The notes under the pieces are model-generated. The model saw nothing but the letters and a program-made list of their open reading frames with translations, was not told the DNA's origin and did not search any database. Source: Rahnella variigena (GTDB lineage Bacteria > Pseudomonadota > Gammaproteobacteria > Enterobacterales > Enterobacteriaceae). Taken from it: a stretch of 64,000 bases of DNA. Each line of letters starts with the position of its first letter. Positions within the stretch are counted from its first letter, which is position 1. The position numbers were made by a program, and so were the translations under genes. The stretch spans positions 1,736,001 to 1,800,000 of the forward strand of contig NZ_NSDJ01000001.1 in the NCBI RefSeq assembly GCF_003610915.1, written 5' to 3'. Positions 2,043 through 62,482 of this stretch are shown in pieces.

Positions 2043-3122
2043 ATGTCTAAAATTTTTGATTTCGTAAAACCAGGCGTTATCACTGGTGATGATGTACAGA
2101 AAGTTTTCGCTATTGCTAAAGAAAACAAATTTGCTCTGCCAGCGGTTAACTGCGTAGGCACCGACTCTATCAACGCCGTTCTCGAAGCTGCTGCGAAAGT
2201 CCGTTCACCGGTTATCGTTCAGTTCTCTAACGGTGGCGCTGCGTTCATCGCAGGTAAAGGCCTGAAAACTGACGTGCCACAAGGCGCGGCAATCCTGGGT
2301 GCAATCTCTGGCGCACATCACGTACATCAGATGGCAGAACATTACGGCGTGCCAGTCATCCTGCACACCGACCATTGCGCGAAGAAACTGCTGCCATGGA
2401 TCGACGGTCTGCTGGACGCGGGTGAAGCTCACTTCGCTAAAACCGGTAAGCCACTGTTCTCTTCACACATGATCGACCTGTCTGAAGAATCCCTGGAAGA
2501 AAACATCGAAATTTGCAGCAAGTACTTAGCTCGCATGGCAAAAATCGACATGACTCTGGAAATCGAACTGGGTTGCACCGGCGGTGAAGAAGATGGCGTG
2601 GACAACAGCCATATGGACGCATCTGCACTGTACACTCAGCCGCAAGACGTTGATTACGCATACGAAAAACTGAACGCTATCAGCCCGCGTTTCACTATCG
2701 CTGCGTCATTCGGTAACGTACACGGTGTTTACAAACCAGGTAACGTCAAACTGACTCCAACGATCCTGCGTGATTCTCAGGAATACGTGTGCAAGAAACA
2801 CAACCTGCCACACAACAGCCTGAACTTCGTCTTCCACGGCGGTTCCGGTTCTACTGCAGCAGAAATCAAAGAATCTGTAGGCTACGGTGTTATCAAAATG
2901 AACATCGACACCGACACCCAGTGGGCTAACTGGGACGGTATCCTGCAGTTCTACAAGAAAAACGAAGCTTACCTGCAAGGTCAGTTGGGTAACCCGGAAG
3001 GCGCGGACAAACCTAACAAGAAATTCTATGACCCGCGCGTATGGCTGCGTGCTGCACAGTCTTCCATGGTGACTCGCCTGGAACTGGCATTCAAAGAACT
3101 GAACGCAATCGACGTACTGTAA
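2043..3122 (+). CDS. fbaA: Class II fructose-bisphosphate aldolase
   Basis: This zinc-dependent aldolase cleaves fructose 1,6-bisphosphate to glyceraldehyde 3-phosphate and dihydroxyacetone phosphate. The 359 aa match E. coli FbaA in length. The zinc site begins at HTDHCAKK (residues ~108-115). The phosphate loop FHGGSGSTAAEI and the block GVIKMNIDTDTQWA are present near residues 265-300. An unrelated class II aldolase (gatY) occurs at 48.3 kb; this longer form with the SYLARM-like insertion is the glycolytic one. A strong intrinsic terminator follows 48 bp after the stop codon. Confidence 0.98.
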   Translation: MSKIFDFVKPGVITGDDVQKVFAIAKENKFALPAVNCVGTDSINAVLEAAAKVRSPVIVQFSNGGAAFIAGKGLKTDVPQGAAILGAISGAHHVHQMAEHYGVPVILHTDHCAKKLLPWIDGLLDAGEAHFAKTGKPLFSSHMIDLSEESLEENIEICSKYLARMAKIDMTLEIELGCTGGEEDGVDNSHMDASALYTQPQDVDYAYEKLNAISPRFTIAASFGNVHGVYKPGNVKLTPTILRDSQEYVCKKHNLPHNSLNFVFHGGSGSTAAEIKESVGYGVIKMNIDTDTQWANWDGILQFYKKNEAYLQGQLGNPEGADKPNKKFYDPRVWLRAAQSSMVTRLELAFKELNAIDVL

Positions 3123-3170
3123 TTCTTACGCTTCCGGTGCTTGACCACCGGAATGTGAGGATAATCGTCA

Positions 3171-3192
3171 AAGGGGCTTCGGCCCCTTTTTT
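3171..3192 (+). terminator. Rho-independent terminator after fbaA
   Basis: AGGGGC-TTCG-GCCCCT stem with a UUCG tetraloop, followed by six T. It closes the epd-pgk-fbaA operon. Confidence 0.93.
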
Positions 3193-3255
3193 ATTGCCCG
3201 TTTTATCTTCACAATGTCAGTCCTGTTAACGGAAACGCCACTGGCGGAGAAAATT

Positions 3256-3636
3256 ATGCGTATAGCGTTGTTCGCGTTATTTGCCCTGACACCTTTTGTT
3301 CATGCCGCTGAAACCGACTGTAAAAATGCCACGACGCAGATGGATATGAACATTTGTGCCGGACAGGAGTTCAAACGCAGTGATACGTTATTAAATCAGG
3401 CCTATAAACAAAAAATGGCGCAGCTTTCGCCGGAGCAGCAAACCAAATTCAAAGCAGCCCAGCGCAGCTGGATTGCATTTCGTGATAACGACTGCGCGTT
3501 TATGTCTTCCGGCGTTGACGGGGGTTCTGTTCAGCCGATGATCTATTCCGGCTGTCTGCAACAGAAAACCGAGCAGCGCACCAAAGAAATTAATGACATT
3601 CTGCACTGCGAAGAAGGCGATTTAAGCTGTCCTTAA
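3256..3636 (+). CDS. Periplasmic DUF1311 / LprI-like protein
   Basis: A 126-aa secreted protein with a signal peptide (MRIALFALFALTPFVHA, cleaved before AETDC) and a DUF1311 domain. Family hallmarks are CKNATTQMDMNICAG, the helical AYKQKMAQL segment, QRSWIAFRDNDC and a C-terminal pair of cysteines. Some DUF1311 members (LprI-type) inhibit host lysozyme; that role is family knowledge, not shown here. I chose the ATG at 3256 because GGCGGAGA lies just upstream and the signal peptide then begins at residue 1; an in-frame ATG at 3214 would add 14 residues before it. The gene sits between the fbaA terminator and lacI, 24 bp ahead of lacI, outside the usual fbaA-mscS order. Confidence 0.8.
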   Translation: MRIALFALFALTPFVHAAETDCKNATTQMDMNICAGQEFKRSDTLLNQAYKQKMAQLSPEQQTKFKAAQRSWIAFRDNDCAFMSSGVDGGSVQPMIYSGCLQQKTEQRTKEINDILHCEEGDLSCP

Positions 3637-3660
3637 CATGAAGTCTGAAGGTAGAAAGCC

Positions 3661-4743
3661 ATGAAGCCAAAATCTGTCACCCTTGATGATGTCGCGCGCC
3701 ACGCGGGTGTGTCTTATCAGACCGTTTCGCGTGTACTGAATCAGGCAGCGCACGTGTCGGTAAGAACGCGCAACAAAGTCGAACAGGCGATGGCAGCGCT
3801 CAATTACGTTCCGAACCGCGTTGCCCAGCAACTGGCGGGTAAACAAAGCTTCACCCTCGGACTGGCGACCACCGAACTGGCGCTGCATGCCCCATCACAA
3901 ATCGCGTCGGCGATGAAAACCCGCGCAAACCAGTTAGGTTTCAACGTCGTGATTTCGATGATTGATAACCTGAGTCTGGCCGCCTGTCGCACGGCGGTGA
4001 ACGAACTGATGTCGCAGCGGGTGGACGGCGTGCTGATTAACGTGCCGCTGTCGAATGACGATGCGGCTGCAATCGCACAGCTTTGTGGCAATTTACCGGC
4101 GCTGTTTCTGGATGTGGATCCAGAAGCTGACGTCTTCAAAATTCTGTTCGATCCGCACTGCGGGGCGAAGCAGGGCGTAGAGCATTTGCTGGCGCTAGGT
4201 CATCAGCAGATCGCGGTGCTGACCGGCCCGCTTGAATCCATCTCAGCGCGCCTGCGTTATGAAGGCTGGCTGAATACGCTGGCGACGCACGATATTACGC
4301 CCTGTGTGGTTCAGCACGGCGACTGGAGCGCAGCGTCGGGTTATCAGCAGGCGTTATTACTGCTCAATCAGCCGGTGCGCCCGACGGCGATTCTGGTCGC
4401 CAATGACCAGATGGCGCTCGGCGTCTTGCGCGCTGTGCACGAGTTTGGCCTGCGGGTGCCGGAACAAATATCGGTAATTGGCTATGACGATACCGAAGAC
4501 AGCGCCTTTTTCTTCCCGCCGCTGACCACCATCAAACAGGATTTCCGTCTGCTCGGTCACGAGAGCGTCAACCGGCTGGTGGATCATCTGCATAATCACA
4601 GCGATCACCACAGCGACTCACTGTTGCTGCCCACGTCCCTGGTTGAGCGCTACACCACCGCCCGACCTGGCGCAGAAAATGTGTCACAGGAAGCGTTGTC
4701 GCAGGAACTGATCCGCATCGCCCGTCAGCTCAGCGCGCTCTGA
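3661..4743 (+). CDS. lacI: Lactose operon repressor LacI
   Basis: A 360-aa LacI/GalR-family repressor. The N-terminal helix-turn-helix reads VTLDDVARHAGVSYQTVSRV with the recognition helix YQTVSRVLN, essentially that of E. coli LacI. The hinge helix NRVAQQLAGKQS and a periplasmic-binding-protein-like core follow. The C-terminal end (LSQELIRIARQL) resembles the LacI tetramerisation helix. It is transcribed in the same direction as lacZ, whose promoter carries a near-perfect lac operator, so it almost certainly represses lacZY and is relieved by allolactose. Confidence 0.95.
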   Translation: MKPKSVTLDDVARHAGVSYQTVSRVLNQAAHVSVRTRNKVEQAMAALNYVPNRVAQQLAGKQSFTLGLATTELALHAPSQIASAMKTRANQLGFNVVISMIDNLSLAACRTAVNELMSQRVDGVLINVPLSNDDAAAIAQLCGNLPALFLDVDPEADVFKILFDPHCGAKQGVEHLLALGHQQIAVLTGPLESISARLRYEGWLNTLATHDITPCVVQHGDWSAASGYQQALLLLNQPVRPTAILVANDQMALGVLRAVHEFGLRVPEQISVIGYDDTEDSAFFFPPLTTIKQDFRLLGHESVNRLVDHLHNHSDHHSDSLLLPTSLVERYTTARPGAENVSQEALSQELIRIARQLSAL

Positions 4744-4754
4744 TCTTCTCTTAG

Positions 4755-7991
<3,237 letters not shown>

Positions 7992-19094: not shown

Positions 19095-19278
19095 GGAATC
19101 TCCGAGATGCCGTCGCAGGCTGTAACCCTTGAACCCATGGTTCAAGGTGAACGTGCTGTCGCAGTCTTTAGGCTTCTCGGACGGACCGAGCATGCGCACC
19201 GATTACGGATCATCACATTCTGTTGGTACTAATTATCGGCTCAGGGGACGGGCCCGCTGGCGAACATCTCAGAGAAAT
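19095..19278 (-). ncRNA. ssrS: 6S RNA
   Basis: About 184 nt on the minus strand. The 5' end ATTTCTCTGAGATGTTCGC (from 19278), the central CATGCTCGGTCCGTCCGAG and the 3' end GGCATCTCGGAGATTCC (to 19095) match the E. coli 6S RNA closely, including the closing stem formed by the two ends. 6S RNA folds like an open promoter bubble and binds sigma-70 RNA polymerase in stationary phase. It lies between zapA and ygfA, as in other enterics. Confidence 0.97.
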
Positions 19279-56158: not shown

Positions 56159-59056
56159 TTACTTAGTTTTATCGATGGAGAATTTTATTGAAAGGGCTTT
56201 GTTATCAAATGACAATTTTTTAAGATCGGGGATCTGTTCGCCTGACTTCACATCAATATAAGACCCACGATAGTCACGTTCAGAATATATGCGGGCGTTA
56301 TAACCCTCAGCAACCTTTATTGAGGACATCTTACTACCGAAATTAGGCATATATTCCCAATATTCATAACCCCCATCGAGCAATGGAGTATCACCCATAA
56401 TGTTTATCGATTGGCCATTATAATAACCGTCATAAGCAATCGCTTTAACGACCTGAACAGATGATGCTGCTTTGTTCATGTCGATGCCTGACTGGGTCAT
56501 ATCATAGAGAGGTTTAGATTTAAAATATATATATGAGTAACTACTTCCTTTGAAATGACAGTCTGTGAATAAATATATCCCCAACGAACTTTTTGGCACC
56601 GTTAAGGACGATACTGCATCATTGGCGTCAGTACCATTTTTCATCTTCACAGTGTCTAAGCAATCGATGTCCCCGGTAATATCCAGGCTATCACCAGTAG
56701 CATTACCGTTCTGGAACAGTGTGGCTTTAAGACCGTGCACCTGTTCTGGCTCTGGCTCTGGTTCTGGTTCTGGCTGCGGTTGTGGATCAAAACTGGTGAC
56801 GACGATTTTAGCGACAGTCGCCGGGTTAGGTGAAATACGCTCAATGACAACGGTTTCACCGAGAGAGATATCTCTCTCATCCGACTTAACGTGGGAAACA
56901 GAGCTATCTTCAGTCACAGTGCTGTATGCACATTTGCCGTTATCGCAGTTGAAAATGGAGTTCCCTTTTTTCTTATCATCATTAATGACTTTAGCGACAT
57001 AAGAGGAACCGTCCGCACTGTGAAGTATCGCTTTATCAAAATCAACGAACACATACGGCACGTTATTGACTTTTGACACGCTAATAGAGCTCACGGTGCC
57101 ATCAGACATGACCGGGTTATTACCGTCAAGCATATCCTGTGTGACCGTTAATTCACCGAGAACCGCTTTATTCGGATAATCACGTGTCACAGTGATAACT
57201 GAACCCACTTTCAGACGACTTGTGGCATCAAAGGAGGAACTTAATGAAACCTCTTTGCCAAAGCGGCCCACAGTGTTGTTAACAGATTTGGAACCGTCGC
57301 TGTTGAAGAGATAATTCCCGTCGACAGACGCAGTAAATCCGTAGCCACTCTTCAGCTTGTTTGCATCAAGGTTAACAATAACTTTTGTTTGACCATTGAG
57401 CAGGCTAACCAGAATACCCTTCAGATCGTCCTTATCAATAATCGGATCGACGTCTGGTTGTACCGGCACGTCGGAATCATCCGGCAGAGCCGTGTTTTTC
57501 ACTTCTTTAACGATATTACCCAGTTCGTGTTCCGGGGTATCACCGCTGATATCCCAAAGAATTGCGCCACCAAAGCCTTGAGCGTTGATATAGTCAACTT
57601 TTTCCTTAATAGACTGAGGATCGTCATAGGTCAGGAATTCTTGCTTGGTTTTGCTGTAGAGATACGGTACGTGTGACTCTGAGTCCCAGTAGCGGGTGTA
57701 TTCGCCAGTGTTCAGTTTTTGTTTCAACACATACCAAGGGTTGGTACCTGTTAACTGATCTGCATCATCCCATGCGCCTTTGACCGATGCTGCACCGGTG
57801 TTGAACATGCCCGGTAAACCAGCAATGATTTCCGTACCCGGGACATGACCCCAGCCACGACCGTAGTAAGGGATCCCCATCATCAGCTTAGCTTTTGGTA
57901 CCTGCCAGGTGTCGGCGTAAGCAGTCATGGTGTCGGCCACGTTCAGGTCTTTATCTTCATCATGGCTGTTTTCAAACAGTGGCGCGTTATGACCGGTTAA
58001 TGGATCAAAAGCACCGTGGATGTCATACGCCATCACGTTTACGCTATCCAGCAACGGCGCGGTCACAGCTGGGTTGATGTACTGAATGTTGTTGTGGTTG
58101 GTAGTGACTGCTGCAGAAAGCTGATAGTACTTATCGTCTTTCAGGCCCTGTGCATCCAGCTTGCTACGCAGAGACTGGATAAGTTTGGTGAACTGGGCTT
58201 TTTCAGCTTCGGTATCCGGGTATTCCCAGTCAATGTCGAGGCCGTCGAAATTCCACTGCGCCATATAGCTGACCATGCTGTTGGCCAGTTTCTCAAGACC
58301 TGCATCCGTGGCGGTTGCGTTTTCGAAGACACCTTCCTGAGAGTTATTCCAGCCACCGACAGAAATCATATGCGCCACGTTGGCCGCTTCTGTGCGTTTA
58401 TCCAGATCTTTGATCAGGCCCGGAGCTTTGTCGGTGTCATGCATGGTCACTACACCGTCTTTGACCACCGCAAAACCGTAGTTCAGGTGGGTCAGGCCAG
58501 AGTAGTCAACTTTATCCGGGGTAAAGAAGTTATGTGCTTCATACACACCCCATTCCGGGAAGTAGCCAATCACTTTACGTTGCGCGGCCACGTTGGCCTT
58601 TTCACGGTTCTGTAGATCGATTGCGTTCTGGCCGGTATACGGCGTGAACTGGAAGGTGGCGTAAGGTTTGATATTGATTGCATCGCCGGATTTCCAAACC
58701 GGATCGGTGCCCGGGCTGATACCCTGATCAACCCACCATTGTGCAGTCCAGTAGTATCCCAGGAAGCGAACAGTATCACCGCCTTTATAGGTGCGGTTCG
58801 GATCGTAGTCTTCAGAAATAATAGCCAGTTCTTGTTTCGGCGCGACTTCTGCTAAAACAGTACCTGGGAAGTTGTTTTGCGATGCGTCGGTATACGCAGT
58901 CCAGGTGTGACCACCATCTTTGGTGATCATCATCGAGTAATCGAGGCCTGAGAAGGTGTTCGTCTCATCGTTTCCCGCCACAGTGGCAGCTGACGAAATT
59001 ATTGGGAATCCAATAGCAGAAAACAGAATTGCTGCAGTTAATTTATTTAAGCGCAT
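56159..59056 (-). CDS. Secreted GH18 chitinase with C-terminal beta/gamma-crystallin-like domain
   Basis: A 965-aa exported enzyme. In order it has a signal peptide (1-23), an N-terminal module, a CBM5/12-type chitin-binding patch (YDPNRTYKGGDTVRF to YYWTAQWW, ~85-125) and a GH18 barrel (~160-550). The barrel carries the catalytic DGLDIDWE, Glu278. A Thr/Ser/Val-rich middle region with repeated TVTRD/VVIER-like units follows. After a PEPEPEPEPE linker come about 190 residues with repeated Gly/Tyr-rich Greek-key-like strands (YLFTDCHFKGSSY, IYSERDYRGSYIDV). It hydrolyses chitin outside the cell or in the periplasm. ATG at 59056 follows GGAAG. It stands alone with its own terminator. Confidence 0.9.
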   Translation of the reverse strand: MRLNKLTAAILFSAIGFPIISSAATVAGNDETNTFSGLDYSMMITKDGGHTWTAYTDASQNNFPGTVLAEVAPKQELAIISEDYDPNRTYKGGDTVRFLGYYWTAQWWVDQGISPGTDPVWKSGDAINIKPYATFQFTPYTGQNAIDLQNREKANVAAQRKVIGYFPEWGVYEAHNFFTPDKVDYSGLTHLNYGFAVVKDGVVTMHDTDKAPGLIKDLDKRTEAANVAHMISVGGWNNSQEGVFENATATDAGLEKLANSMVSYMAQWNFDGLDIDWEYPDTEAEKAQFTKLIQSLRSKLDAQGLKDDKYYQLSAAVTTNHNNIQYINPAVTAPLLDSVNVMAYDIHGAFDPLTGHNAPLFENSHDEDKDLNVADTMTAYADTWQVPKAKLMMGIPYYGRGWGHVPGTEIIAGLPGMFNTGAASVKGAWDDADQLTGTNPWYVLKQKLNTGEYTRYWDSESHVPYLYSKTKQEFLTYDDPQSIKEKVDYINAQGFGGAILWDISGDTPEHELGNIVKEVKNTALPDDSDVPVQPDVDPIIDKDDLKGILVSLLNGQTKVIVNLDANKLKSGYGFTASVDGNYLFNSDGSKSVNNTVGRFGKEVSLSSSFDATSRLKVGSVITVTRDYPNKAVLGELTVTQDMLDGNNPVMSDGTVSSISVSKVNNVPYVFVDFDKAILHSADGSSYVAKVINDDKKKGNSIFNCDNGKCAYSTVTEDSSVSHVKSDERDISLGETVVIERISPNPATVAKIVVTSFDPQPQPEPEPEPEPEQVHGLKATLFQNGNATGDSLDITGDIDCLDTVKMKNGTDANDAVSSLTVPKSSLGIYLFTDCHFKGSSYSYIYFKSKPLYDMTQSGIDMNKAASSVQVVKAIAYDGYYNGQSINIMGDTPLLDGGYEYWEYMPNFGSKMSSIKVAEGYNARIYSERDYRGSYIDVKSGEQIPDLKKLSFDNKALSIKFSIDKTK

Positions 59057-59806
59057 AAATAGCTTCCAAATTTGTCCATAAACTCGTTTATTAACGAGGG
59101 ATGCAAAAATCACAAGGCTTTATATCATTTACATTGTCTGCATAGTATTTAATTATATATTAAGAACAAATAAATCAAACTTACCCATATGTATTTAAAC
59201 AATAAAGATATTTCCATCATTTAAATAAATGTTTTTGATGTCAATTATAATTAAATGTAATTATTGGTGATTGGGACAGGAACTAAGCTCACTATGAGCC
59301 TCTACCAATGCCAACCACTGACTCCCAAAAGGCCTTGGTCTTGGAAACGTTGGGTCAACACGGGGAAATTATTGGGTTCATCCGGTCATAAATTGTGGAC
59401 CTGGAATGACTGTTTACGCTCGAGACAGCGGGTAGGGGTAAAAACTTTGCATTAGATGATGTCATAGCTTGTTCTCCTGAATCATATTGGTTTGGATGCA
59501 GGAGGATTAGAGATGTGGTCGTTTTAGTGAGTATTTTTGTCTTCTCGGTTTTATATTGAAAGCCAAAGTACTTAACATGATTGTTTTAATTTAAATCAGC
59601 CTTAAAGATGCTTACGTTTTTTTATTTAAAGCTTCGACGGTGTACGTGGAGCCTTACCCTATTACGTACAAATTACGCTGTGGAAATCAGCGTGATCCAT
59701 GTTGGACTAAGAAAATCCTGACATTCCGCTATTTCTTGAACAGCTCAATAATGAATTCACATCGGCAGCCCCTTTTTTCAGAGTTACCAGGACAAATTGG
59801 AGGCAC
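59057..59806. other. Non-coding region between the chitinase gene and the ssrA-type att site
   Basis: 750 bp, AT-rich, without a gene I can support. The first ~200 bp hold the chitinase promoter. Segments near 59260-59460 have a different, GC-richer texture with TTGGGTCAACACGGGGAAAT-like text and could be mobile-element debris, but no family was recognised. Confidence 0.45.
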
Positions 59807-59840
59807 AAAAAAGCCCGCAGGGCTTACGCCTTGCGGGCTT
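59807..59840 (-). terminator. ssrA (flank): ssrA-type terminator
   Basis: On the minus strand AAGCCCGCAAGG...CCCTGCGGGCTT is followed by TTTTTTGTGCC. It matches the terminator that follows E. coli ssrA in sequence and spacing. Confidence 0.88.
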
Positions 59841-59884
59841 CCAGGACTTCGTTGGATGGCTCTGGTAACCATCAACCAAGAATT

Positions 59885-59907
59885 TGGTGGGCTGGGGGAA
59901 GTTGAGG
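59885..59907 (-). other. Attachment site remnant: 3' end of tmRNA (ssrA)
   Basis: Read on the minus strand, 59907-59885 gives CTCAACTTCCCCCAGCCCACCA, close to the tmRNA end TTCAACTCCCGCCAGCTCCACCA. The next ~75 bp (AAATTCTTGG...GGTTACCAGAGCCATCCAACGAAGTC) and the terminator at 59807-59840 also match the natural downstream flank of ssrA. The rest of ssrA is absent here. This is what remains at the far end when an element integrates into the 3' end of ssrA. Confidence 0.75.
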
Positions 59908-60357
59908 AAATTAGCTAAATTAATTTTTTAAATAGTTAATTACGAATTCAGATTTGTGGTGTATACCTAAACATATACCAATGCAGATTTTGACTGGGAT
60001 TCATTACTACCAACCACGTTAATTCTGCACTACTAAACCCATCGAGAGTGGATGGGTTCTCAAGTGTTTATTGGACGATTGCAGGCACCCATATTGGGAA
60101 CTTCACAAATCACTATTTACCGGTATTTTTAGCTTTGTAACCATCAATGGTGTGGCGAACTCATTGTGCTTTATACGGCTGACTATCTCGCCAGCGTTAC
60201 AGCGGAGATCAGAATTCAGTTCAAATGGGCGCTGTGGCTTCATTTCATAAGTGATAGCTGACCGTCTGCTGAGAGCGAGGAGTAGACATAAGGCCGCCAG
60301 CACGCACTATCAAAGCCACAATAAAAAGTTGATCTCTTGTTAGACGCATACATTCGT
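59908..60357. other. Region between the att site and the reverse transcriptase gene
   Basis: 450 bp with no assigned gene. The minus strand has an open frame of 66 codons (60103-60303) containing PQRPFELNSDLRCNAGEI, which looks protein-like but is unrecognised and lacks a good start. An inverted repeat CCCATCGAGAGTGGATGGG lies near 60038-60056. It belongs to the integrated element. Confidence 0.45.
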
Positions 60358-61857
60358 TTATGCATAGTCATAATTAAGTGATTCAGGGTTCATAACTCTC
60401 TCAATACCTGATTCTTCCAAACCTTTCTTCAATGCCTTATGTATTAGTAGAAAACTCGGAATCTCAAGTAGGTTTTTCCCTGATATAGTATATTTTGCAC
60501 ATCGTGTCAAAAGTACTTTTCTCGATGCATTAAAAGGAAAACTATGTGAGCGGCTAAAACCGTGGGTAGCAAGTAATTTGCAACGTAACCTTAATGCTCT
60601 ATGTACTACCGATAACACCCAGCCATCTAGTTGAGTTAATTGTTCAACATCATCTACGAGCGGATAAAAACTCATGACACCCTTGAAATAAATTCTCTTC
60701 GTTCTACCTGATAGGTAATCTTTTATTTGTTTATTGCTCAACCCCCCATACATATAGCGACGAATCTCACATATAGCGGAAAGGAAATTTTTATCTTTGT
60801 CATTTGCCGGTATTACTTGCCCAGCTAATGAATTCTGTTTAAGAGGCTGAATTAGGTTTCGGTAAAGAATATATGATATTTGTTTTTTTATTTTCTTAAA
60901 AGATTTTTCTTTTATCGATACATTATCAACTGAAAGTGTATATCCTAAAAAATCAAGACTGGTTTTTGCCACTATTTCCGCAGGGTGTCCATCTTTAGTC
61001 AATAAAGATATGCCGTCTGATTTTTTTGGATTTATTTCCACCCCTGCACTTTTGGAAAAGTCATTGATTTTTCGAAAAGTGTTACATATTTTTGTGTATT
61101 CAGGTGACCAAGCAATTGTATCGTCAGCATAGCGTGAAAATTTCACGCCTTCCATTTCAAAGCTTTGGTCAAGCTTCCAGCATGTCAAGTTGGCTAGAAA
61201 TAGGCTTATTGATGTCCCCTGAGGAATTCCAACCTTATTACCTTTTAAAAAAGATTTAATAACAAATCTCTCTTCAGGACTTATATAAAATCCATTCTCT
61301 GAAAATTGTTTATTTAAAAAATCATGTGAAATTGATCCAAAAAAATCTGAAAAATCAAATTCGGCCAAAAATGTTCTTTCATTCCTCTTTAGATCCACAG
61401 ATATGTCTTGAATAGCAAAGTGAACGTTTCTATCATTCCTGTATGCGTAAGAAAATGAACTAAATCGATGTCTATTCTTAGCTAACAGTCTATTGAAAAA
61501 TAGCTTTGATATTGCAGCATCAGGTATTTGATATATGGATACTCTTCTGATGCCACCATCAGGCTTATCAACTTCTTTCATAAATGGTTTGTTAGGAATG
61601 TAAGTTCTCCGCTCTATTTTATTAGCTATAGAACGAGCAATGCTTTTATAGTTGGATTTGACGTAGAATGGATTAAATTTCCTATCAATCCTCCAATAGT
61701 CAGGAGTATGTATTTTTTTTGATGGTGCAGAATCACCTAAGCGATTTTTATTTCTTTTGGAATTTATATGAACTCTATTGTGATATTCATGATAGCGTTC
61801 AATGAGCTTTTCTGCCTCTTCACGAATTACCTTTTCAATCTGAATCTCTAATTTCAT
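60358..61857 (-). CDS. Defence-type reverse transcriptase (DRT family) with dedicated ncRNA
   Basis: A 499-aa single-domain reverse transcriptase. It has an Arg/Lys-rich N-terminal helix (1-60), then PDGGIRRVSIYQIPD (~99-113), motif A AEFDFSDFFGSI (165-176, with Asp168 and Asp171), GIPQGTSIS (210-218), YADD (243-246) and LDFLGYTLS (301-309). A helical C-terminal half (~320-499) ends in NYDYA. It has no maturase/X or endonuclease domain, so it is not a group II intron protein. ATG at 61857 is preferred: it follows AAGGGA, and the upstream frame runs through a terminator. Base composition is far more AT-rich than the backbone. A structured RNA and promoter precede it. Single-gene RTs of this layout are DRT2 and DRT9; length and short RNA favour DRT9, but this is inference. 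Confidence 0.85.
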   Translation of the reverse strand: MKLEIQIEKVIREEAEKLIERYHEYHNRVHINSKRNKNRLGDSAPSKKIHTPDYWRIDRKFNPFYVKSNYKSIARSIANKIERRTYIPNKPFMKEVDKPDGGIRRVSIYQIPDAAISKLFFNRLLAKNRHRFSSFSYAYRNDRNVHFAIQDISVDLKRNERTFLAEFDFSDFFGSISHDFLNKQFSENGFYISPEERFVIKSFLKGNKVGIPQGTSISLFLANLTCWKLDQSFEMEGVKFSRYADDTIAWSPEYTKICNTFRKINDFSKSAGVEINPKKSDGISLLTKDGHPAEIVAKTSLDFLGYTLSVDNVSIKEKSFKKIKKQISYILYRNLIQPLKQNSLAGQVIPANDKDKNFLSAICEIRRYMYGGLSNKQIKDYLSGRTKRIYFKGVMSFYPLVDDVEQLTQLDGWVLSVVHRALRLRCKLLATHGFSRSHSFPFNASRKVLLTRCAKYTISGKNLLEIPSFLLIHKALKKGLEESGIERVMNPESLNYDYA

Positions 61858-61870
61858 AAGTCCCTTAAAC

Positions 61871-61898
61871 AAAAAAGCCTGAGTTGAACTCAGGCTTT
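61871..61898 (-). terminator. Intrinsic terminator between the ncRNA and RT genes
   Basis: AAGCCTGAGT-TCA-ACTCAGGCTT, a perfect ten-pair stem with a three-base loop, followed by TTTTTT. It ends the ncRNA 14 bp before the RT start codon, so RT mRNA must arise by read-through. Confidence 0.92.
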
Positions 61899-62043
61899 CC
61901 CACGGTATCAACCCAAGTAAAAGTAAGTTATCACATGGTTGGATAGGTTTTGATACCTTTCCCCCGTCAGTGTGATTCATCACAGCTGAAGACCAATTAT
62001 TTCTAACTGGTAGAAGGCAATACCGTTATCCCCACAGGGGAGT
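61871..62043 (-). ncRNA. Structured non-coding RNA upstream of the reverse transcriptase
   Basis: About 173 nt from an inferred start at 62043 to the terminator. In order: CCCC-TGT-GGGG; stem ACCAGTT/AATTGGT with loop AGAAAT (62011-61992); TGTGA-TGAA-TCACA (~61985-61972); and a long-loop stem GGTATCAA (61957-61950) with TTGATACC (61911-61904). The 38-nt loop of the last stem contains ACTTACTTTTACTTGGG, a T-rich stretch suited as a template. Then comes the terminator hairpin. No open reading frame of note is in it apart from the out-of-use N-terminal extension of the RT frame. The position, right in front of a lone RT, matches known DRT template RNAs. Confidence 0.7.
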
Positions 62044-62050
62044 AAAATGT

Positions 62051-62078
62051 ATGATAACTAGTTTCAAAAAAAATGCAA
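62051..62078 (-). promoter_or_regulatory. Promoter of the ncRNA-RT unit
   Basis: On the minus strand TTGCAT (62078-62073), a 16-bp AT-rich spacer and TATCAT (62056-62051). The expected start lies at about 62043, just before the first hairpin of the ncRNA. Confidence 0.6.
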
Positions 62079-62100
62079 GAATTGTAACCCATAAGCCTTA

Positions 62101-62482
62101 GACCTTATTCCACAGGAATCAAAACCAATGGATAAATTCAGTTTCGCTGATTAACTAAATTATTTCAGGTATCGGCTTGTTCCAGTATCACCTTCTGGTA
62201 CATGCCCTACTCTCAAATTGGATTTCATTCAGAACATCGCAAATATTCCCTCTCGAAGGCTAATGCCCTGCCTTCTGACCGTGGGTCAAAAATAACTTAG
62301 TCAAGCAAATGCCCGAAAGTCATAAAATTTAGCGTAATAAAAGATTTATAGTTAAAACTAGTCACACTGTTCACTTTTGCATTTTTTGCATTTAATTTCA
62401 TATTGTTAGGTGGTGCTTGGTTTATTCCTAACTATCCATAACTCATCACTTGAAAGTGACCAGTCGCCATTTCAGGGATAAA
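62101..62482. other. Spacer between the RT unit and the primase gene
   Basis: About 380 bp with no gene. It is AT-rich around 62330-62430 with several short TGCATTT/AAATGCA-like arms, and GC-average elsewhere. In P4-type satellites the cis replication region follows the primase gene, so this stretch could contain it; I cannot prove that from sequence. Confidence 0.4.

Follow-up and report, generated by a model that had tools for sequence, protein, structure and literature searches.

The window analysed here, a 64-kb stretch of the Rahnella variigena genome, carries near its end a reverse transcriptase (RT) gene whose frame is open over 499 codons. The gene is preceded on the same strand by a structured RNA, an intrinsic terminator and a promoter-like hexamer pair, and it neighbors genes of a P4-like element (Table 1). 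An RT of this length with an intact YADD motif had been foreseen by the original prediction and is found as described. Furthermore, the RT is AT-richer than its surroundings, as had been stated, with a GC content of 33.7% in the RT region vs. 52.1% in the whole window.

Table 1. Features of the putative DRT9 locus and its surroundings, in window coordinates.
Feature	Position	Strand	Details
DRT9 (UG28) reverse transcriptase (very probable class)	60358–61857	minus	499 aa; YADD at residues 243–246; Y496/Y498 near the C-terminus
DRT9 non-coding RNA, ~173 nt	61871–62043	minus	5′ hairpin, central long stem, template loop, 3′ terminator hairpin
UUUU template	61919–61922	minus	RNA nt 122–125 (nt 123–126 in published SenDRT9 numbering); function from PMC12483538
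Intrinsic terminator hairpin (published SL6), T6 tract	61871–61900	minus	Sequence, fold and helix 6 of the A2 structure
Weak sigma-70-like promoter, TTGCAT-16-TATCAT	62051–62078	minus	8/12 consensus matches; reached by 26.6% of shuffles
P4-type alpha primase/helicase, 776 aa	62515–64000	minus	Extends beyond the window end
Degenerate copy of ssrA 3′ end and downstream sequence, probable att end	59801–59905		Pairs with L006 15028–15134
Approximate DRT9 cargo module	60191–62335	minus	Replaced by a different gene in the same-genus genome G007 (L035 7631–8879)

Profile searches place the RT within the UG/DRT groups, as anticipated. The PADLOC Drt9 profile matches residues 4–496 with 719.8 bits (E = 4e-217), and the best profiles other than Drt9 are a generic RT model (99.5 bits) and UG17 (DRT10), the next-best DRT profile with only 92 bits. 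The original prediction of a DRT-type system, which is confirmed by this score together with the solved-chain and RNA matches described below, had named both DRT2 and DRT9 as models, and the DRT9 part stands. A DRT2-type system, where repeat cDNA would encode a toxic protein, shares the two-part layout of an RT and an upstream RNA, and there are weak matches to the Drt2 profiles (66.9 and 50.5 bits in PADLOC) and to NF041746 (71.1 bits). However, these stand against the Drt9 score, the NF041746 match lies far under its cut-off of 390 bits, and the RNA here measures ~173 nt with a U4 loop, as opposed to 280 nt for a DRT2 RNA (PMC12489045), which makes a DRT2-type system extremely improbable. 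An origin from a retron or a group II intron, the structured leader being unrelated, would account for the generic RT similarity seen with TIGR04416 (125.3 bits), but its cut-off is 300 bits, RVT_1 is the only Pfam domain in the RT with no maturase domain, and the leader matches a covariance model made from DRT9 relatives; the probability of this origin is negligible. In NCBIfam, the RT has seven matches, every one under its cut-off and none to a Drt9 model, and Rfam gives no match at the position of the RNA. These absences may only mean that the libraries hold no DRT9 model, as none of the matching models is a DRT9 one.

Residues 1–498 of the RT match one distinct chain sequence in the PDB (E = 8.5e-273; next match 1.9e-18), which occurs in six entries (9ioa, 9iob, 9nlv, 9nlx, 9vku, and 9vma) under the label RNA-dependent DNA polymerase, with nothing more specific. 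These six entries we take to be DRT9 structures. Together with this assumption, the C-terminal peptide of the chain, which is the same as the peptide of the Salmonella system SenDRT9, identifies the chain as DRT9 (PMC12483538). The published peptide, IMNPQSLNYDYE, corresponds to RVMNPESLNYDYA in the window RT (PMC12483538). Among the protein-database matches listed, the Salmonella enterica RT P0023 is 79% identical to the window RT and relatives P0002–P0012 are 83–90% identical over 100% of the query, while the RTs of E. coli XJ5.2 and Photobacterium sanctipauli reach 79% and 77%, respectively. No source is given for the entry P0001 (98% identity), possibly the window’s own protein or a near copy of it. 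An alignment of 21 RTs, comprising the window RT, those of three loci and another 17 from the 120 listed database matches, contains YADD and Tyr496 in all sequences, Tyr25 in 20 and Tyr498 in 19, and all four are present in the window RT. Judged from its sequence, the locus is very probably a complete DRT9 (UG28) anti-phage system. It does not represent a new class and is a further DRT9 copy, complete and ordinary-looking, of an already known immune system.

The RNA had been described as hairpin-rich, and its fold agrees with this (−64.7 kcal/mol, z = −5.5; none of 200 shuffles is equally stable). A covariance model built from seven relatives (alignment A2), with the window excluded, finds the window RNA at 62044–61871 over its full length (178.3 bits, E = 1.1e-42). 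The sole other match in the 64 kb up to E = 10 has 18.2 bits and corresponds to the same terminator palindrome on the opposite strand. Because the consensus structure was derived from the seven A2 sequences themselves, the pairing and covariation test is tilted in its favor when it gives standard pairs for 95.8% of the cells in 54 pairs (34–52% with partners slid) and changes on both sides for 23 of the 54 pairs (shuffle mean 14.0; 23 is reached by none of 500 shuffles). The further pair types are unexceptional, their value being reached by 68 of the 500 shuffles.

Conservation beyond these relatives was assessed across 16 distinct RT loci, window included, with repeat copies of one region counted as one locus (L005 and L013 merged into L004, L022 into L008, and L001, L006 and L012 into the window). 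Four loci were left out of the RNA alignment, namely L016, whose contig offers just 110 bases of upstream sequence, L020, where the contig ends within the RT, and L015 and L019, for which the model gives no match up to E = 10. UUUU is present in all 12 aligned RNAs, and the bases around it vary. The RT of L023 has an internal TAG and only its RNA was used. Outside the training set, model matches are clear for L014 (51 bits), L023 (39 bits) and L017 (38.5 bits), whereas the 22 bits of L025 are no better than wrong-strand matches to the palindromic terminator (16.9–23.8 bits), so that this RNA rests on its position and UUUU loop. With RNAalifold, the consensus for the full set of 12 RNAs retains only three helices, probably due to the poor alignment of distant RNAs, and the covariation count was therefore limited to the seven closer relatives. 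A model-based alignment (A4) was left out; it held two opposite-strand terminator matches (L011 and L004).

Both here and in Escherichia coli, the RT reading frame continues without a stop from the ATG upstream into the RNA, which raises the question of a longer RT whose start lies within the RNA gene (a 541-aa protein from a GTG in the window) and of an RNA that also serves as coding sequence. This is quite improbable, since the upstream stretch is interrupted by an in-frame stop in L011, an in-frame stop lies two codons before the ATG in L024, and the solved chain has 499 aa with the same starting Met. In some relatives, the annotated RT is indeed a 532-aa protein starting inside the RNA gene (L004:12078–13676; P0005 and P0023; window counterpart 60358–61983). 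These starts are probably annotation errors made possible by a frame that is open by chance. Based on profile scores, domains, the RNA model and the upstream stops, a DRT2, a retron, a group II intron RT and an RT with an N-terminal extension were all rejected as interpretations.

The perfect intrinsic terminator expected just before the start codon can be read directly as AAAGCCTGAGTT-C-AACTCAGGCTTTTTT and ends 13 bases before the RT ATG. Its helix of 14 pairs is paired in 100% of cells in the seven A2 relatives. A pattern scan for terminators and promoters listed neither this hairpin nor the promoter pair; in the case of the terminator, the likely reason is that the tool lets the stem run on into the T tract. 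The promoter is the least secure part of the locus. A sigma-70-like hexamer pair is in place as predicted, but its score is at chance level when taken alone, 8 of 12 matches being reached by the stated share of 1000 shuffles. When the register is forced so that 4–10 bases separate the end of the second hexamer from the RNA, the best pairs of the 12 loci score 7–10 of 12; in three of these loci, the score is attained by under 5% of shuffles (71.5% in Escherichia coli). The combined Fisher P is 8e-5 over these 12 loci, which are related and for which the RNA starts were chosen by the analyst. Given the chance-level single match and a P-value of this origin, the promoter is considered plausible, no more.

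Judged from its gene content and repeats, the DRT9 module is cargo of a P4-like element of ~11.3 kb at ssrA, in line with the ssrA-linked element originally proposed. No tRNA or tmRNA was found inside the 64-kb window, and the tmRNA gene lies 7.1 kb past its end (L006:15113–15476 = C1:1807113–1807476). Between the tmRNA gene and the RT there are genes for an integrase, a 446-aa orphan, a Psu-like protein, AlpA, Ash, a DUF5375 protein and the alpha primase; integrase, AlpA, Psu-like protein and alpha primase thus occur together in one element, as in P4-like elements. The length of the element follows from ssrA at one end and the att-like repeat at the other, and homology to the flank of a same-genus genome (G003) stops at 59784. 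The chromosomal flank is formed by a gene for a 984-aa family-18 glycosyl hydrolase (chitinase-like; window 56159–59113). Elsewhere in the window, a 6S RNA (19095–19278, minus strand) is the sole Rfam match at the gathering threshold.

The flank was found in six of 14 same-genus genomes, including the window’s own, and was compared in three others. In G003, where the tmRNA gene is present, the flanks (L006 25–3784 and 15014–20000) are 2.4 kb apart and enclose just integrase and primase-end fragments of the element plus unrelated ORFs. G007 shares the element backbone (88.8% identity over 5.1 kb), but in place of the DRT9 stretch it has a 323-aa gene (L035:7761–8732, minus strand) with a marginal PADLOC match (E = 0.0035); no tmRNA gene was found within the 14 kb examined. 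In G004, other parts of such an element adjoin the flank where the contig ends. Such remnants at ssrA in a same-genus genome, together with the degenerate att copy and the weak promoter match, would fit an intact-looking but silent or inactive DRT9 copy that is a passenger of a decaying element. On the other hand, the RT frame, the catalytic and priming residues and the template are all intact, the RNA fits the covariance model over its full length, and close relatives (P0002–P0012, among those listed) retain high identity over the entire query, so that a silent passenger is rather unlikely, and a complete DRT9 system is the preferred interpretation.

The published defense hotspot of P4 elements lies between psu and int (PMC9122126). 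Here, DRT9 travels at the opposite, primase end of the P4-like element and thus outside this hotspot (PMC9122126). The known hotspot position, between the integrase and Psu-like genes, is occupied by the 446-aa orphan gene (L006:12324–13664, minus strand; C1:1804324–1805664), for which no Pfam, PHROG or PADLOC match was found. As the same backbone carries DRT9 here and an unrelated 323-aa gene in G007, Rahnella-type P4-like elements might possess a second defense slot from the alpha primase to the att end, in addition to psu-int, and DRT9 could serve as a satellite weapon against the rivals of its helper. This suggestion is tentative; if true, the slot could be mined for new defense genes.

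DRT9 is widespread but sparse in the sequence collections searched, as expected for horizontally moved defense genes. Counting RT matches at E ≤ 1e-60, the RT is found in one of 98 genomes of relatives (the window’s own only), 2/369 of the class, 3/394 of the order and 5/398 of the phylum, each including the window’s genome; a search of 13 further same-genus genomes found none. Within the families of three known DRT9-bearing genomes, the counts are 2/245, 1/146 and 3/150. Three of 5426 E. coli genomes match, one with a fragment ending at an IS1-like element, and a near-mode search of E. coli genomes found no relative of the RT or the RNA. In E. coli VE-T9 (L005:8078–9190), the DRT9 RT breaks off after ~101 codons, and an IS1-like element follows. 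The protein database contributes 1182 relatives at E ≤ 1e-50 among 8000 candidates scored, and at least two plasmid records cover ≥80% of the query (L014 and L015). In phage records, 15 hold distant RTs only, none of which covers 80% of the query, and viral contigs gave no relative with either the single-protein query or the Thioclava RT query. By sequence, the host looks Rahnella-like: for one 10-kb piece of the second replicon, the eight best among the records listed are from Rahnella (82–83% coverage, 88–89% identity), although Pantoea records with some match (46) outnumber those of Rahnella (12). A paper search found none in which Rahnella occurs alongside the term “defense-associated reverse transcriptase.”

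In published DRT9 systems, the RNA serves as both scaffold and template, with a UUUU loop that is repeatedly copied into poly-dA, and the active complex is a hexamer (PMC12483538; PMC12489045). Two C-terminal tyrosines, Y496 and Y498, are the likely primers (PMC12483538), and a role has been assigned to the N-terminal extension with Tyr25 (PMC12489045). The product is kept low by ExoI until, in the case of phage T5, gp58 protects the poly-dA and abortive infection is triggered (PMC12483538; PMC12489045). Counterparts of these parts are present here in the form of UUUU, YADD, Tyr25, Y496, Y498 and an ExoI-type gene in the window’s genome. By analogy, the most likely activity is the synthesis of protein-primed poly-dA, with abortive infection as the mode of defense. 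The small RNA would be made from its own promoter and end at the intrinsic terminator, while part of the transcription presumably reads through the terminator into the RT. RT and RNA would then assemble into an oligomer, in which a tyrosine near the RT C-terminus acts as primer and long poly-dA is produced by round after round of copying of the UUUU loop, as in SenDRT9. Following the SenDRT9 and phage T5 example, ExoI would destroy this poly-dA in uninfected cells, and phage proteins protecting DNA ends would let it accumulate, so that the infected cell dies before the phage spreads. A literature search found no experiment on this DRT9 copy. As to its range, 10 DRT9 systems have been screened and those of Salmonella and Photobacterium are named as defending (PMC12483538). 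With two named defenders among 10, protection of E. coli against a particular phage should not be expected of every intact system.

The closest characterized system is SenDRT9 of S. enterica (Tang et al., 2025; PMC12483538). Its RT has the same length and a matching C-terminal peptide with two tyrosines, and its RNA has a U4 template offset by one nucleotide in numbering and a 3′ terminator-like hairpin; the S. enterica RT P0023 was the one compared above. The window copy, whose activity is predicted, has a different host and mobile element. For PsaDRT9 of P. sanctipauli (PMC12483538), a locus of the same species (L008, spanning just 6.2 kb) was available, and its RNA is 77.3% identical to that of the window. 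Escherichia coli DRT9 (L004 and L013; RT 79%, RNA 82.1% identical) likewise lies downstream of ssrA and an integrase, but it directly follows the integrase and the remaining element genes differ, with a MobQ relaxase in L013. As a full system 77–79% identical to tested ones, the Rahnella copy is usable as an independent homologue.

DRT10 (UG17) likewise makes RNA-templated, protein-primed repetitive cDNA, and its RNA fold is reported to resemble that of SenDRT9 (PMC12632851). It differs in requiring a SLATT partner and using an A-B-A′ template (PMC12632851), in contrast to the U4 template of the window. No SLATT match was found among 10 neighboring ORFs with Pfam or nine with PADLOC, a scan covering ORFs of at least 80 aa outside 59.1–60.3 kb. 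An RT lies beside a SLATT gene on the Thioclava plasmid p3 (NZ_CP149928.1; L015:2893–3000 and 3001–5131). Drt9 is the best profile for this RT (484.3 bits), and a 93-nt stretch upstream, with ends chosen by eye, folds well (z = −4.4). Its loop reads AAACUUAGAUUAUCUACCG, which is devoid of UUUU and contains UUA-GA-UUA, resembling the DRT10 A-B-A′ template. This single locus thus appears to be a distant SLATT-linked DRT9 relative without the U4 template; if true, it would point to a DRT9 branch making repeats instead of poly-dA. A class UG28b has been split off previously (PMC8934634), and the SLATT-linked relatives may belong to it.
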